Below, piece after piece: positions 6,110-14,243 of a DNA stretch of 19,649 bases (positions are counted from its first letter, which is position 1; each line of letters begins with the position of its first letter). Made by a program: the position numbers and the translations under genes. Origin of the DNA: Lachnospiraceae bacterium (GTDB lineage Bacteria > Bacillota_A > Clostridia > Lachnospirales > Lachnospiraceae); contig JAFQDI010000059.1 in NCBI GenBank assembly GCA_017416055.1, positions 1 through 19,649 on the forward strand. Direction: 5' to 3'. The notes under the pieces are model-generated. The model made no database searches and was not told where the DNA came from. It was given only the letters and a program-made list of their open reading frames with translations.

Positions 6110-6838
6110 ATGTTAAAGTATGAAATCGAAGGCGGTCATTTGCCCGTTGTGATTTGTTATCCCGAAGCGGGGCAGACTCTCTGCACGGAGAGCGGTGCCA
6201 TGAGTTGGATGAGTCCCAATATGAAGATGGAGACGAACAGCGGAGGTGGTTTCAAAAAAGCTCTCGGCAGATTGTTTTCCGGTGAATCTATTTTTATGAA
6301 TGAATATACGCCGGAGGGTGGTGCGGGGATGATCGCGTTTGCGTCCACCTTCCCCGGTTCCATTATCCCCTATCAGGTGACGGAAGGACACGGGATCATT
6401 GTGCAGAAGAGAGGCTTTCTTGCTATGGAGAAGGGGCTTGATCTGTCGCTCTATTTCCAGAAGAAGATCGGTAAAGGCTTGTTCGGCGGCGAGGGATTCA
6501 TCATGCAGAAAATCAGCGGAAACGGGCTTGTATTTCTGGAAATTGACGGCCACTGCAAAGAATACGAGCTGGGCATCGGTGAGAGCATCATCGTGGACAC
6601 CGGCTATCTGGCGGCAATGACCGAGAGCTGTACGATGGATGTACAGACAGTGAAAGGTGCGAAGAATCTGTTCTTCGGCGGAGAAGGACTGTTCCACACC
6701 CGGATCACCGGTCCCGGAAAGGTATACATCCAGTCCATGCCGATCATCAACATTGCACAGAGGTTGTCACCATATCTGGAGATTAATTCCGGTGATAGCA
6801 ATAGCGGCGGTGGAATCAAGATCAATTTTGGCGAGTAA
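6110..6838 (+). CDS. TIGR00266 / AIM24-family protein
   Basis: This 242-residue protein has the repeating beta-strand pattern of the TIGR00266/AIM24 fold: an N-terminal ESGAMSWMS segment (about 27-35), a Gly-rich loop with a GGGFKKALGRLFSGE motif (about 45-59), then PGSIIPY, FGGEGFIMQKISG, ES-I-VDTG, and the C-terminal G-GLFHTRITGPGKV element. It ends in a Gly/Ser-rich tail (SGGGIKINFGE). The bacterial role is unknown; no catalytic residues are established. GGAGG precedes the ATG by a normal distance. It lies 67 bases after the GH13 gene and 44 bases before the symporter, so it is probably in their transcript, though families of this type also occur in unrelated contexts. Confidence 0.88.
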   Translation: MLKYEIEGGHLPVVICYPEAGQTLCTESGAMSWMSPNMKMETNSGGGFKKALGRLFSGESIFMNEYTPEGGAGMIAFASTFPGSIIPYQVTEGHGIIVQKRGFLAMEKGLDLSLYFQKKIGKGLFGGEGFIMQKISGNGLVFLEIDGHCKEYELGIGESIIVDTGYLAAMTESCTMDVQTVKGAKNLFFGGEGLFHTRITGPGKVYIQSMPIINIAQRLSPYLEINSGDSNSGGGIKINFGE

Positions 6839-6882: not shown

Positions 6883-8283
6883 ATGAAGAATGATAATCAG
6901 GTAATCAGAAACCGCTATTGTTTCGGCTTCGGAACCATTGGCCGCGATATGCTGTACAGTCTGGTTAGTATGTATCTGATCAATTACATCACCGGAGTAA
7001 TCGGTGTGTCCAACAAAGGACTCGGTATCATCACCGCCCTGATGATGGTGTTCAGAGTGTTTGATGCACTGAACGATCCCATCATGGGCACGATTGTGGA
7101 CAACACAAAGACCCGCTGGGGAAAATTCAAACCCTGGATCCTGTTCGGCATGATTACATCCGGCCTTTTAACAATCTTGTTGTTTTCGAACTTCCATCTG
7201 GCGGAGGGACAGTATATTGCCCTGTTTGCGGTGGTTTATCTATTGTGGGGCATGGCATATACGACCAATGACATTTCTTACTGGGCGATTATGCCTGCGT
7301 TGACCAAGGATCAGAAGGAGCGGGAACGTATCGTAGCATTTGCGCGTATCTGTGCGAGCGTGGGTATGTTCTCGGTGGTGATTCTCTACACGCAGATTCC
7401 CACGATTTTCGCACCCTTCGGTGACAAGTGTTATTTGGTGTTTACCCTGATCGTAGTTGCGATTCTGTGGATATTCCAGTTGTTCACCCTGCTCGGTGTG
7501 AAGGAAGATCGTTCCGGCCTTGCGAAGCAGGAACACACGACTCTCGGCGGAATGCTGAAAGTATTATTTAAAAATGATCAGTTGATGGTGACTGCCATCG
7601 CGATGGCGTTGTTCATGATCGGTTACTGTACAACCACCTCGTTCGGAGTGTACTATTTCCGTTATGCATACCAGGATGAGAACATGTATATGGTGTTTGC
7701 GGCAGTGCTGGCGGTAGCTCAGTTGACAGCGCTTTCCCTGTTTCCGAAATTCTCGGCGAAATGGACCAGAAAGCAGCTCTATTTCGGATCAATGGTGGCG
7801 GTTTGTGTGGCGTACATTCTGTTTTTCCTCGCTCCCTTCCAAAATATGCTGCTGATCGGTGTTTCCGGACTGATCCTGTTCTTTGCACAGGCATTTATTC
7901 AGACGCTGATGCTGGTGTTCCTTGCAGATACCGTGGAGTATGGTCACTGGAAGCTGGGCAAGCGCAATGAATCGGTCACCTTTGCGGTACAGCCCTTCAT
8001 CAATAAGCTGGGCGGTGCAGTCGGCTCCGGCGTGGTCGGTCTGACACTGATTTTATCCGGTATCAACGATATCGAGCAGAAGTACGCAGCGGCAACAACA
8101 CAGGCAGATAAACTGGCAGCGGCAGCGACGGTTCAGACCTCGTCTCTGTGGATGATGAAGGTGGCGATGCTGATCTTCCCGCTGATCTGTATCGTGGTGG
8201 GGTTTGTATTGTACCGCAAGAAATACGTGATTGATAAAGAGATGTATGAGCGGATTGTGGAGGAGCTGAAGGAGAGAGAATGA
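6883..8283 (+). CDS. GPH-family sugar:cation symporter
   Basis: A 466-residue membrane protein with about twelve transmembrane helices of the glycoside-pentoside-hexuronide (MelB-like) family in the major facilitator superfamily. The family signature loop between helices 2 and 3 is clear: F-DALNDPIMGTIVDNT then K-TRWGKFKPW (residues about 58-86). It probably imports an unphosphorylated glycoside with Na+ or H+. A hydrophilic C-terminal helix (IVEELKERE) ends the protein. The start has a GAGGATAAG-type site. It lies directly after the GH13 and AIM24 genes, so its substrate is plausibly the alpha-glucoside cleaved by the GH13 enzyme. It converges with the DeoR gene with only three bases between the stop codons and no terminator in the gap. 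Confidence 0.93.
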   Translation: MKNDNQVIRNRYCFGFGTIGRDMLYSLVSMYLINYITGVIGVSNKGLGIITALMMVFRVFDALNDPIMGTIVDNTKTRWGKFKPWILFGMITSGLLTILLFSNFHLAEGQYIALFAVVYLLWGMAYTTNDISYWAIMPALTKDQKERERIVAFARICASVGMFSVVILYTQIPTIFAPFGDKCYLVFTLIVVAILWIFQLFTLLGVKEDRSGLAKQEHTTLGGMLKVLFKNDQLMVTAIAMALFMIGYCTTTSFGVYYFRYAYQDENMYMVFAAVLAVAQLTALSLFPKFSAKWTRKQLYFGSMVAVCVAYILFFLAPFQNMLLIGVSGLILFFAQAFIQTLMLVFLADTVEYGHWKLGKRNESVTFAVQPFINKLGGAVGSGVVGLTLILSGINDIEQKYAAATTQADKLAAAATVQTSSLWMMKVAMLIFPLICIVVGFVLYRKKYVIDKEMYERIVEELKERE

Positions 8284-11524: not shown

Positions 11525-12325
11525 ATGAATTCGATAGGAAGTACGATTAAGTGTCTTCGCAAAGCAATGGGTGTGACACAGGAGGAATTGGCTGGAAGTT
11601 TAGGTGTGACATATCAAGCCGTTTCAAAGTGGGAGAATGATACAACGTTACCGGATATTATGATGATTCCGGCGTTAGCAACCTATTTTGGCGTTACGAC
11701 AGATGAATTGTTTGGATATAAGTTGAATGTGATGACAGATAAAGAACGATTAATCAACTTTATGATAAAAAACCAGATACTATGTCGTAAGGATGTTAAC
11801 AATGTAAATGATGTCAGACCGGACTACTATATTAACTCTGAGCGTTTCACAACAAATGCTCAAATTAGCAAGATCGGTGAGGCGTTTGCAGATTGTATCC
11901 GTGAAAACCATCTTGAGTTTGATACAATTATGGGGTTGGCATATCATGGAATCGGATTCTCGGCAGCGACAGCAGTTGCATTATATCAGAAATACGGGGT
12001 TACAACACACTATTGCTATGATCGACAGCGGCCGGATAGCAGAGGACGAATACTCTGTGGACATACACCGCAGACAGGTGAACGGCTGATCATCATCGAT
12101 GATGTAATGGGGACCGGGCGTAGTATGGATGAACGAATTTCACAATTACGGGCAGTAGCAGATGTGCGGATTGAAGCTATTATTGTTATTGTCAATCGGT
12201 GTCATTGCCTTACAGAAAAGTCCGGGACGGTGCTGATGAAAGAAAAATACGGAGCAAATGTGTATTCTCTGATCACGGATTATGATATTCAGCAGATGCA
12301 AAAGAGCGGAATGATTATTGCGTAG
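11525..12325 (+). CDS. XRE HTH fused to phosphoribosyltransferase-like domain
   Basis: The 266-residue product has an N-terminal XRE HTH (about 5-63: TQEELAGSLGVTYQAVSKWEND) and a C-terminal type I phosphoribosyltransferase fold (about 98-250). That domain resembles orotate phosphoribosyltransferase: YYINSERFTT, then MGLAYHGIGFSAATAVAL (136-153), and the PRPP loop L188-IIIDDVMGTGRS200 with both acidic residues. The flexible loop where PyrE has RKEAKDHGEGG here reads YDRQRPDSRGR, lacking the catalytic Lys and His. So it is probably a ligand-sensing regulator, analogous in logic to B. subtilis PurR, rather than an enzyme. Likely effectors are PRPP or a nucleotide. It has its own promoter and ends in a strong terminator. 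Regulon unknown; autoregulation is possible. Confidence 0.88.
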   Translation: MNSIGSTIKCLRKAMGVTQEELAGSLGVTYQAVSKWENDTTLPDIMMIPALATYFGVTTDELFGYKLNVMTDKERLINFMIKNQILCRKDVNNVNDVRPDYYINSERFTTNAQISKIGEAFADCIRENHLEFDTIMGLAYHGIGFSAATAVALYQKYGVTTHYCYDRQRPDSRGRILCGHTPQTGERLIIIDDVMGTGRSMDERISQLRAVADVRIEAIIVIVNRCHCLTEKSGTVLMKEKYGANVYSLITDYDIQQMQKSGMIIA

Positions 12326-12336
12326 GTTGTATAGTG

Positions 12337-12369
12337 AAAGGCAGATCATGGATAGGATGGTCTGCCTTT
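12337..12369. terminator. Bidirectional intrinsic terminator
   Basis: Arms 12337-12349 and 12357-12369 pair over 13 bases with one G-U and a 7-base loop, followed by TTTT on the plus strand and preceded by AAA for the other. It lies between the convergent XRE-PRTase and toxin genes. Confidence 0.85.
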
Positions 12370-12379
12370 TCAAGTCCTA

Positions 12380-12877
12380 TTACTCTGTTGAAGTGTGTTG
12401 ACGTAATTCTTCAAGCATCAAGTGTTCGATGCGTTGAATGTCTGGAAATACTAATTTTTTTCCACGTTTCATCAGTGCAAAGATTTTCCTCATGTTTGTG
12501 CGAATTGTTTGCTGAAGCTCTGTGTGAACACGCACTGGTTTGCCATCTCTGCTATGTACATGATCTAAATAATGTTCTGTGATTGGAAAAATATTTTGCA
12601 AAAGAAATGCAGCCTTTTTCTGATCAAATTCACCAATTACAATCGTTAGGCAGTTTCCGTAGGTTTTCATTTGTTTGTCGTAAAGTGCTTGATATTTTTC
12701 GTCAACTTTGGAACTCATGGGGACAACCCATAGAAGTGAAGTGAGAGAATCTTTGATACAATAGAATGTGGGGCGGTAGGAACCATGTTCTTTATTTTTC
12801 ATCAGTTTGTCATCTTTGATGTATTCAAAAAATTCATCTTTGATATGGTAGACGTAGCCTTCTCGGAATTGAGTCAT
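12380..12877 (-). CDS. cptN: Type III toxin, CptN/ToxN-like endoribonuclease
   Basis: A 165-residue protein that I assign to the CptN branch of type III toxin-antitoxin toxins from both sequence and locus architecture. These are small single-domain RNases with a compact SH3-like fold that cut mRNA and are held inactive by their own repeat RNA. Visible segments are YHIKDEFFEYIKDDKLM (10-26), RPTFYC (35-40), LLWVVPMSSKVDEKY (48-62, where the family's active-site Ser/Lys region lies), CLTIVIGEFD (76-85) and NIFPITEHYLDHVH (95-108). AGGAGG lies upstream of the ATG at 12877. On the same strand just upstream are an intrinsic terminator, two 45-base tandem repeats and a consensus promoter, the defining layout of this system. 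Lower GC than neighbours suggests acquisition. The CptIN label rather than ToxIN or TenpIN rests on repeat length and number. Confidence 0.82.
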   Translation of the reverse strand: MTQFREGYVYHIKDEFFEYIKDDKLMKNKEHGSYRPTFYCIKDSLTSLLWVVPMSSKVDEKYQALYDKQMKTYGNCLTIVIGEFDQKKAAFLLQNIFPITEHYLDHVHSRDGKPVRVHTELQQTIRTNMRKIFALMKRGKKLVFPDIQRIEHLMLEELRQHTSTE

Positions 12878-12912
12878 CCAATTCCTCCTTTCTTAAGAAA
12901 AATAAGAATGAA

Positions 12913-12938
12913 AAAACCCTATCCTCAGACAGGGTTTT
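12913..12938 (-). terminator. Leaky terminator between cptI repeats and cptN
   Basis: AAAACCCT (12913-12920) and AGGGTTTT (12931-12938) pair over eight bases; read on the minus strand the stem ends in a six-base T-run. This is the position where type III loci have the attenuating terminator that sets the RNA-to-toxin ratio. Confidence 0.8.
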
Positions 12939-12942
12939 CTTG

Positions 12943-13036
12943 ATTTTCCAGCCACCCATTTATCGGTCGCCGGTGGCGGCGAGCAATATTTTCCAGCCAC
13001 TCACTTATCAGTCGCCAGTGGCGGCGAACAATATTT
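12943..13036 (-). repeat. Two 45-base tandem repeats (plus 4-base start of a third)
   Basis: Copies are 12943-12987 and 12988-13032, exactly 45 bases apart, then ATTT at 13033-13036. They differ at five positions, all transitions. Two of these (12956 C to 13001 T, and 12972 G to 13017 A) are paired in the predicted stem and change together from C-G to T-A. Confidence 0.92.
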
Positions 13037-13045
13037 ACTGTTATT

Positions 13046-13074
13046 ATTATATTGAAAAAAGCATATTTTGTCAA
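13046..13074 (-). promoter_or_regulatory. Consensus promoter of the type III locus
   Basis: On the minus strand TTGACA (13069-13074), a 17-base spacer and TATAAT (13046-13051): both boxes perfect. It starts just ahead of the first repeat. Confidence 0.88.
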
Positions 13075-13142
13075 GACGGATATTTTTTGACCCTTTTTAG
13101 ACAGAGGTTTTTGACCTTTTCGATTTCTTCTTATCTTTCTCC

Positions 13143-13171
13143 TTGACAAATCACAAAAATGATTCTATAAT
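13143..13171 (+). promoter_or_regulatory. Consensus promoter of the SPFH operon
   Basis: TTGACA (13143-13148), 17-base spacer, TATAAT (13166-13171). Both boxes are perfect, so regulation must come from a repressor; TGATATCA repeats start at the last base of the -10. Confidence 0.88.
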
Positions 13172-13229: not shown

Positions 13230-14243
13230 ATGAGTGTTTCAAATGAAAAGAGCGCATATCTCAATGTGGAGGAGCGCGAGATTGTTCCCATGAATGGCAT
13301 CCTGATGCTGTTAACGATTATCGCCATGCTGCTTTTGTCTGTCGGCGGCATTATCGCCAGCGCATTTGCACTGGATGCGGAGATGATCGCGTTGGGCGTG
13401 ATTGGTCTGATTGTTTCAACTATCTGGTTTGTTGCTTGTTGTATTGGCTTTGCCGGATTTCATGTGATTAACCCGAACGAGGCTCTTGTTATGACCCTGT
13501 TCGGCCAGTATTACGGCACGATCCGCAAGTCCGGTTTTTACTTTACGAATCCTTTTGCGAGCGGCTACAACCCCACTGTTGAGGGGCTTGGCGGTGCGGT
13601 TCAGGTGCAGCCCAACGGAACGACTCAGGTAAGCGCCTCGGCAACCCTCAGCAAGAAGGTCTCTACGAAAGTGATGACGTTTAACAACGAAAAGCAGAAG
13701 GTCAATGATGCACTGGGCAACCCGATCATTATCGGTACGGTGGTGATTTGGCGCGTGGCAAGTCCTACCAAGGCAGTGTTCAATGTGGATAATTATAAGA
13801 AATTCCTTTCAATTCAGTGTGATTCCACCGTGCGAAATGCGGCGCGCCTTTATCCTTACGACACGATGGAGGATGATACCGACGAGTTGACACTTCGTGG
13901 ATCCAGCACAGCGATCGCAGAGAGTATGAAGGAGGAACTTCAGAAGCGTGTGGCCGATGCCGGTCTGGAGATTCAGGAAGTACGTATCAATCATCTGGCA
14001 TATTCCGACGAGATTGCATCCTCGATGCTTCAGAGACAGCAGGCGGTGGCAATCATTGCAGCCCGTCAGAAGATTGTAGAGGGCGCGGTCAGCATGGTAA
14101 AGATGGCGATCGACCAGTTGAGCGAGGAGGAAATCGTGGTTCTTGACGAGGAGAGAAAGGCCGCGATGGTGAGCAACCTGCTCGTGGTTCTCTGTGGAAA
14201 CAAGGATGCACAGCCTATCGTGAACAGCGGATCCATCTATTGA
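13230..14243 (+). CDS. SPFH-domain (stomatin/prohibitin-like) membrane protein
   Basis: A 337-residue protein with an N-terminal cytoplasmic tail, two membrane helices (about 23-48 and 52-76) and a large SPFH domain (about 79-295). Recognisable SPFH features are V-I-NPNEALVMTLFGQYYGTIRKSGFYFTNPF (79-109), VWRV-P (about 172-178), the middle YPYDTM, and the helical A-I-E-SMKEELQKRVADAGLEIQEVRI region leading to the coiled-coil part with QRQQAVAIIAARQKIVEGAV. Such proteins form large membrane-attached rings that organise microdomains or protect membrane enzymes. AGGAGG is about six bases before the ATG. It is paired with a ribbon-helix-helix gene 57 bases downstream, a pairing I have seen described in other Firmicutes and Actinobacteria. 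Its specific role is unknown. Confidence 0.93.
   Translation: MSVSNEKSAYLNVEEREIVPMNGILMLLTIIAMLLLSVGGIIASAFALDAEMIALGVIGLIVSTIWFVACCIGFAGFHVINPNEALVMTLFGQYYGTIRKSGFYFTNPFASGYNPTVEGLGGAVQVQPNGTTQVSASATLSKKVSTKVMTFNNEKQKVNDALGNPIIIGTVVIWRVASPTKAVFNVDNYKKFLSIQCDSTVRNAARLYPYDTMEDDTDELTLRGSSTAIAESMKEELQKRVADAGLEIQEVRINHLAYSDEIASSMLQRQQAVAIIAARQKIVEGAVSMVKMAIDQLSEEEIVVLDEERKAAMVSNLLVVLCGNKDAQPIVNSGSIY

Follow-up and report, generated by a model that had tools for sequence, protein, structure and literature searches.

A predicted CptIN type III toxin-antitoxin operon in a Lachnospiraceae bacterium

Architecture of the cptIN locus

A CptIN type III toxin-antitoxin operon is almost certainly encoded on the minus strand of contig JAFQDI010000059.1 (assembly GCA_017416055.1), a stretch of 19,649 nucleotides from a Lachnospiraceae bacterium which is called the window here. 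Read from position 13074 down to 12380, the locus consists, in this order, of a promoter, two 45-base repeats, a terminator, a ribosome-binding sequence and a gene of 165 codons, cptN, which is the sole gene of the operon according to the list of open reading frames (ORFs). The initial annotation, made from the DNA alone, had described the same succession of parts as a CptIN-like locus; each part was recovered, and the family assignment is supported.

The promoter (13046..13074, minus strand), a consensus match only, is formed by TTGACA, a 17-base spacer and TATAAT and agrees with the consensus at 12 of 12 positions; as promoter-like matches as a class occur at background level (5 seen, 3.8 expected), weight is placed only on the perfect score. 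With its -10 box ending at 13046 and antitoxin unit 1 starting at 13036 (in the repeat register used below), the predicted RNA would begin almost at this unit. The raw tandem copies of 45 nucleotides (nt) each (12943-12987 and 12988-13032) are 89% identical, and the corresponding row of Tandem Repeats Finder (TRF; 12943-13036, 2.1 copies, score 153) is the top one among the 7 TRF rows of the window, in keeping with the expectation in the initial annotation of about two repeats of about 45 bases for a CptIN locus. Our own tandem score of the window upstream region was 36.5, compared with a maximum of 12.5 across 80 shuffled upstream regions. An intrinsic terminator (12911..12940, minus strand), detected by terminator scan and fold, lies at the boundary between antitoxin and toxin and has a 13-pair stem followed by a T-run (-15.9 kcal/mol, z -3.80). 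The ribosome-binding sequence AGGAGG (12884..12889, minus strand) precedes the toxin start codon, AAAGGAGGAATTGG preceding the ATG of the cptN ORF, and cptN itself (12380..12877, minus strand) is a full-length open frame for a predicted endoribonuclease of 165 amino acids.

Family, fold and active site of the toxin

The cptN product matches the NCBIfam equivalog NF047359 (CptIN) with 180.1 bits, twice the cut-off of 90, over positions 1-149 of the 150 in the profile. CptN of Eubacterium rectale (CptN-Er, PDB 4RMO) is both its best solved relative and its best fold match, at 31-32% identity, so that the predicted fold is of the CptN/ToxN type on which the initial annotation had staked its proposal. 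No ToxN family match was obtained at E<=1 in Pfam, NCBIfam or PADLOC. Repeats of the ToxIN and AbiQ type III systems (2xd0, 4ato, 4glk, 7d8o) measure 34-36 nt and occur in 2.8-5.5 copies, and ToxIN forms hexameric rings (PMC5086642). Membership in ToxIN was rejected on the grounds of the 45-nt repeat, the missing family match and a fold similarity lower than that to CptN. The Pfam family YjhX_toxin was dismissed as well (score 13.6 against a cut-off of 27, E 0.067). Type II toxins such as MazF, Kid and CcdB pair with a protein antitoxin, in contrast to the window operon with its single gene.

For comparison, relatives were gathered by similarity to the window protein (the best 80 of 152 from genome contigs plus 1 from viral contigs), and the counts therefore describe one branch and not the whole CptN family. 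Residues are numbered after 4rmo with roles taken from PMC4627078, and counts refer to the 77 relatives that are readable through the matched stretch; the other 4 of the 81, with one in-frame stop each (L002, L018, L029 and L048), were excluded. The active-site residues Ser51 and Ser52 of CptN-Er correspond to S55 and S56 of the window toxin and are conserved in 77/77 and 72/77 relatives, respectively. Asp81 of the adenine pocket stands opposite D85 in two alignments of the window toxin and opposite a gap in another, and only one of the 77 relatives has Asp at this position.

Antitoxin units and their pairing potential

A primer sequence printed in PMC4627078 supplied the CptI unit of E. rectale, which was overlaid without gaps on unit 2 of the window in all 45 registers. 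Register zero, in which the unit begins directly after GGA, was the best, with 23 of 45 positions identical (runner-up register, 18), a number reached by none of 10000 composition shuffles; unit 1, compared in register zero only, shares 20 positions. In this register of the processed E. rectale unit (AAAU start, GGA end), CptI unit 1 occupies 12992..13036 and unit 2 12947..12991 on the minus strand, each of 45 nt. The coinciding positions include the G44-A45 end, the loop A29-U30-A31-A32 and U34-G35, while the stem sequences differ from those of E. rectale. CptI of E. rectale is no longer active as an antitoxin when it carries A29U or lacks U30 (PMC4627078).

Both window units could form a stem 1 from positions 10-14/21-25 and a stem 2 from 15-20/36-41, with a loop 2 of positions 26-35, and all 11 pseudoknot pairs are possible in either unit at the sequence level. 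This pairing potential, the coincidence of the loop and the like units in relatives point to an H-type pseudoknot whose long loop 2 holds A29-U30. The units differ at five positions, all of them transitions; two form a compensatory pair (U20-A36 in unit 1, C20-G36 in unit 2) and the remaining three are unpaired. When five random substitutions were simulated, all pairs survived in 7.5% of cases, and survived together with a two-sided change in 1.1%; if only transitions were allowed, the values were 27.8% and 5.0%. The compensatory pair is thus suggestive, although weak when taken alone.

A search pattern for such pseudoknots was applied to 80 upstream regions, those of 79 relatives and of the window; L011 and L055 were left aside for having no upstream sequence. 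A first round, which used no loop motif and allowed up to four picks per region, scored the two window units at 30.0 and 31.0, besides chance picks of 21.1 and 24.0. With the loop motif TANAA (second round), the window yielded no unit, 12 of the 80 regions lacked any, and at least two were present in 57/80 regions compared with 21/240 shuffles. After the motif had been widened to ATAA/ACAA/AAAA, three G or C required in stem 1 and the score threshold raised (third round), at least two units were found in 75/80 regions and in 1/400 shuffled ones. Many relatives are close kin, and the 80 regions are not independent. Fewer than two units remained in L027, L029, L033, L042 and L069, and the second units of L031, L048 and L056, whose stem departs from the family plan, are probably wrong picks. 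On 1000 shuffles of the window upstream region, the third-round pattern yielded at least one unit in 107 and two in 5, with a best score of 26.7 compared with the observed 30 and 31. Among the 167 units, stem 1 occurs in 22 sequence variants and stem 2 in 44, and 147 of the loops contain ATAA plus TAAA or TAAG. When partner arms were exchanged among distinct stems, the pairing was 0.59-0.60, a value that is only illustrative because the units were picked for pairing.

Among single relatives, the locus of Clostridiales bacterium GWE2_32_10 (L001) shares with the window a 61% identical toxin, two units, the GAAAATATTG junction and His at the position of Tyr104, but its units have 46 nt, are identical to each other and possess shorter stems. 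L002, despite the stop in its cptN, shows three plausible antitoxin units and one probable wrong pick. Three-unit arrays with differing stem sequences are situated upstream of cptN in 11 loci (L003, L004, L010, L013, L016, L025, L057, L059, L060, L070 and L077), several of which are near-identical and represent few independent cases. Units at the same position across these loci have mean identities of 0.85, 0.92 and 0.87 (55 comparisons each), compared with a mean of 0.66 and a maximum of 0.76 within one locus (33 comparisons). Two-unit loci such as L005 resemble, by eye, positions 2 and 3 of these arrays. Judged by sequence, this suggests position-specific units and, perhaps, rings containing unlike RNAs. 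In 10 of the 11 loci the tandem-repeat score does not exceed the shuffle maximum, and repeat finders may therefore miss such antitoxins. None of the titles and abstract openings surveyed mentions mixed three-unit arrays.

Proposed mode of action and alternative explanations

From family, predicted fold, gene order, repeat register and pairing potential, we infer the following course of transcription, cutting, neutralisation and growth arrest. The single promoter would give rise to a short RNA carrying two CptI pseudoknot units; the terminator would end most transcripts, and some would extend into the toxin gene. The toxin CptN, a predicted endoribonuclease with a predicted MazF-type toxin fold, should cleave the precursor behind GGA and so release units of 45 nt. 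Each unit would bind back to CptN and block its active site, presumably within a ring that joins two proteins to two RNAs, as found for E. rectale. On loss of the locus or of its transcription, the RNA should decay first, and free CptN would then cut A-rich transcripts and stop growth. The E. rectale system is toxic in Escherichia coli; its own RNA neutralises it, those of two other CptIN systems do not, and it prevents plasmid loss over 24 h (PMC4627078). On grounds of homology, the window locus should act as a self-maintaining addiction module, and its most likely effect would be maintenance of itself or of its neighbourhood.

Several observations weigh against this assignment, which draws on sequence and predicted fold. 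The pseudoknot that the initial annotation had proposed to predict for each unit holds as pairing potential, but folding without pseudoknots prefers other hairpins in single units, with energies of about -15 kcal/mol. A stability clearly above that of the shuffles is seen in unit 1 alone (z -2.78, compared with -1.12 for unit 2). Rfam gave no match at gathering scores in the whole window, the matches around the locus lying far below them, and PADLOC gave no match for the toxin. The unit pattern was revised after its second round had missed the window, so that the shuffle counts are not blind; as the third-round choices were made with the sequences already seen, 75/80 versus 1/400 overstates what a blind test would give. 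Finally, in comparison with CptN-Er, the toxin has Lys57 for Arg53 of the triad, Ala89 for Ser85 and His108 for Tyr104 of the adenine pocket, and Arg for Ile106.

These substitutions, together with the in-frame stops within the matched stretch of 4/81 relatives, which indicate that decay occurs in the family, would be in line with a relic, a locus of intact architecture that has lost the activity of its toxin or of the pairing between toxin and RNA. Such a relic seems very improbable, since the cptN frame is full-length with both active-site serines retained, Lys (51/77) or Gln (22/77) is usual at the Arg53 position, where Arg occurs in only 4/77 relatives, and His at the Tyr104 position is universal (77/77 and the window). 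Moreover, both repeats retain every pair with one compensatory change, the chance of kept pairing alone being 7.5-28%. Alternatively, repeats and terminator might constitute a cis-acting attenuator or leader regulating the downstream gene; the terminator does separate the repeats from cptN, which it would attenuate. Yet register, loop motif and cut end match the crystallised antitoxin of a 31-32% identical toxin, and repeated pseudoknot-capable units occur in 75/80 upstream regions, which leaves a purely regulatory role with hardly any probability.

That the CptIN operon of the window is mainly an anti-phage system acting by abortive infection, as ToxIN-family type III relatives do (PMC5086642), is an unlikely proposal. 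In E. coli, E. rectale CptIN conferred no resistance to over 200 coliphages (PMC4627078), and neither of the two CptIN systems that had been tested up to 2016 protected against phages (PMC5086642). PADLOC matches in 3 of 8 neighbouring proteins are all partial and at the domain level (best E 1.5e-9, helix-turn-helix), and no cptN relative was found at E 1e-5 among 50,697 phage records. Phage defence by the window locus is possible but unsupported.

In E. rectale CptN, Tyr104 contacts the scissile adenine, keeps it in place and also stacks on the preceding base, G44 (PMC4627078). Tyr is retained at this position in the two plasmid relatives examined (of six plasmid matches). The window toxin would belong to a CptN branch with His in place of this Tyr and might, as a tentative idea that we regard as rather doubtful, cut another sequence than the crystallised CptN or cut slightly differently.

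Genomic context

Among 299 genomes (taken from the family to which the genome of locus L009 belongs), G046 is the closest, its endonuclease III being 91% identical. In this sister genome, of which 16 kb were read, six of the 20 listed window genes have matches over most of their length and in the same order, and a seventh matches over a short stretch only. The matches of the transporter gene (window 6883-8283) and of the Band_7 gene (13230-14243) are separated there by another gene, which we take to be PnuC-like. In the window, six genes, including cptN, lie between transporter and Band_7, and all of them lack a match in the G046 stretch at E 1e-5. The DNA becomes similar again from 13143 onwards, where a plus-strand promoter has its first base. 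The Band_7 gene was found at E 1e-60 in 2 of 3 genomes of the sister genome's genus; a search for CptN was negative in all three, but its control was silent in all of them, and absence is not shown by it. Judged from these sequences, cptIN is located in a variable block between conserved genes. No mobile-element gene turned up when 10 of the 20 listed genes were scanned with Pfam and 8 of these with PADLOC, nor in the scans of cptN. Relatives of cptN on plasmids are few (6/72,556 records, identity at most 38%).

The plus-strand promoter (13143-13171) is a second perfect one of sigma-70 type, divergent from the cptIN promoter and upstream of the Band_7/SPFH gene. The 68 bases between both promoters (13075-13142) contain a 13-base direct repeat (13084-13096 and 13108-13120, 24 bases apart), a possible operator or a product of chance. 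Convergent with cptN, a plus-strand gene (11525-12325) fuses a Cro/C1-type helix-turn-helix and a phosphoribosyltransferase domain; it has weak PADLOC matches to the PRTase_III-A and HTH_VI models and, in the sister genome's genus, one 34% match located elsewhere. Between this gene and cptN, 3' of the latter, a 13-base inverted repeat (12337..12369, 92%, strand unassigned) is a possible terminator, which the terminator scan did not flag. Another plus-strand gene (6110-6838), between glucosidase and transporter genes, is without match in the sister region L093.

One relative, L081, is a CptIN locus on an IMG/VR contig filed as viral. Scans of 5 neighbouring proteins revealed, among others, a SpaA-domain protein, a HerA-type ATPase and an M23 peptidase, which would fit a conjugative element; PHROGs matches to 3 of the 8 proteins compared, including a weak one to a terminase, make a phage origin possible.

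Significance for the CptIN family

The cptIN locus of the window is an ordinary addition to the known CptIN family. It contributes a complete and cleanly delimited locus, with a compensatory base pair among the differences between its two antitoxin units, and a toxin branch that differs from the crystallised CptN at an adenine-contacting residue. Searching by the pseudoknot plan, and not by tandem repeats, is suggested as a way to recover antitoxins missed by a repeat search. Less expected by specialists would be the branch-wide histidine and the mixed arrays present in some relatives.
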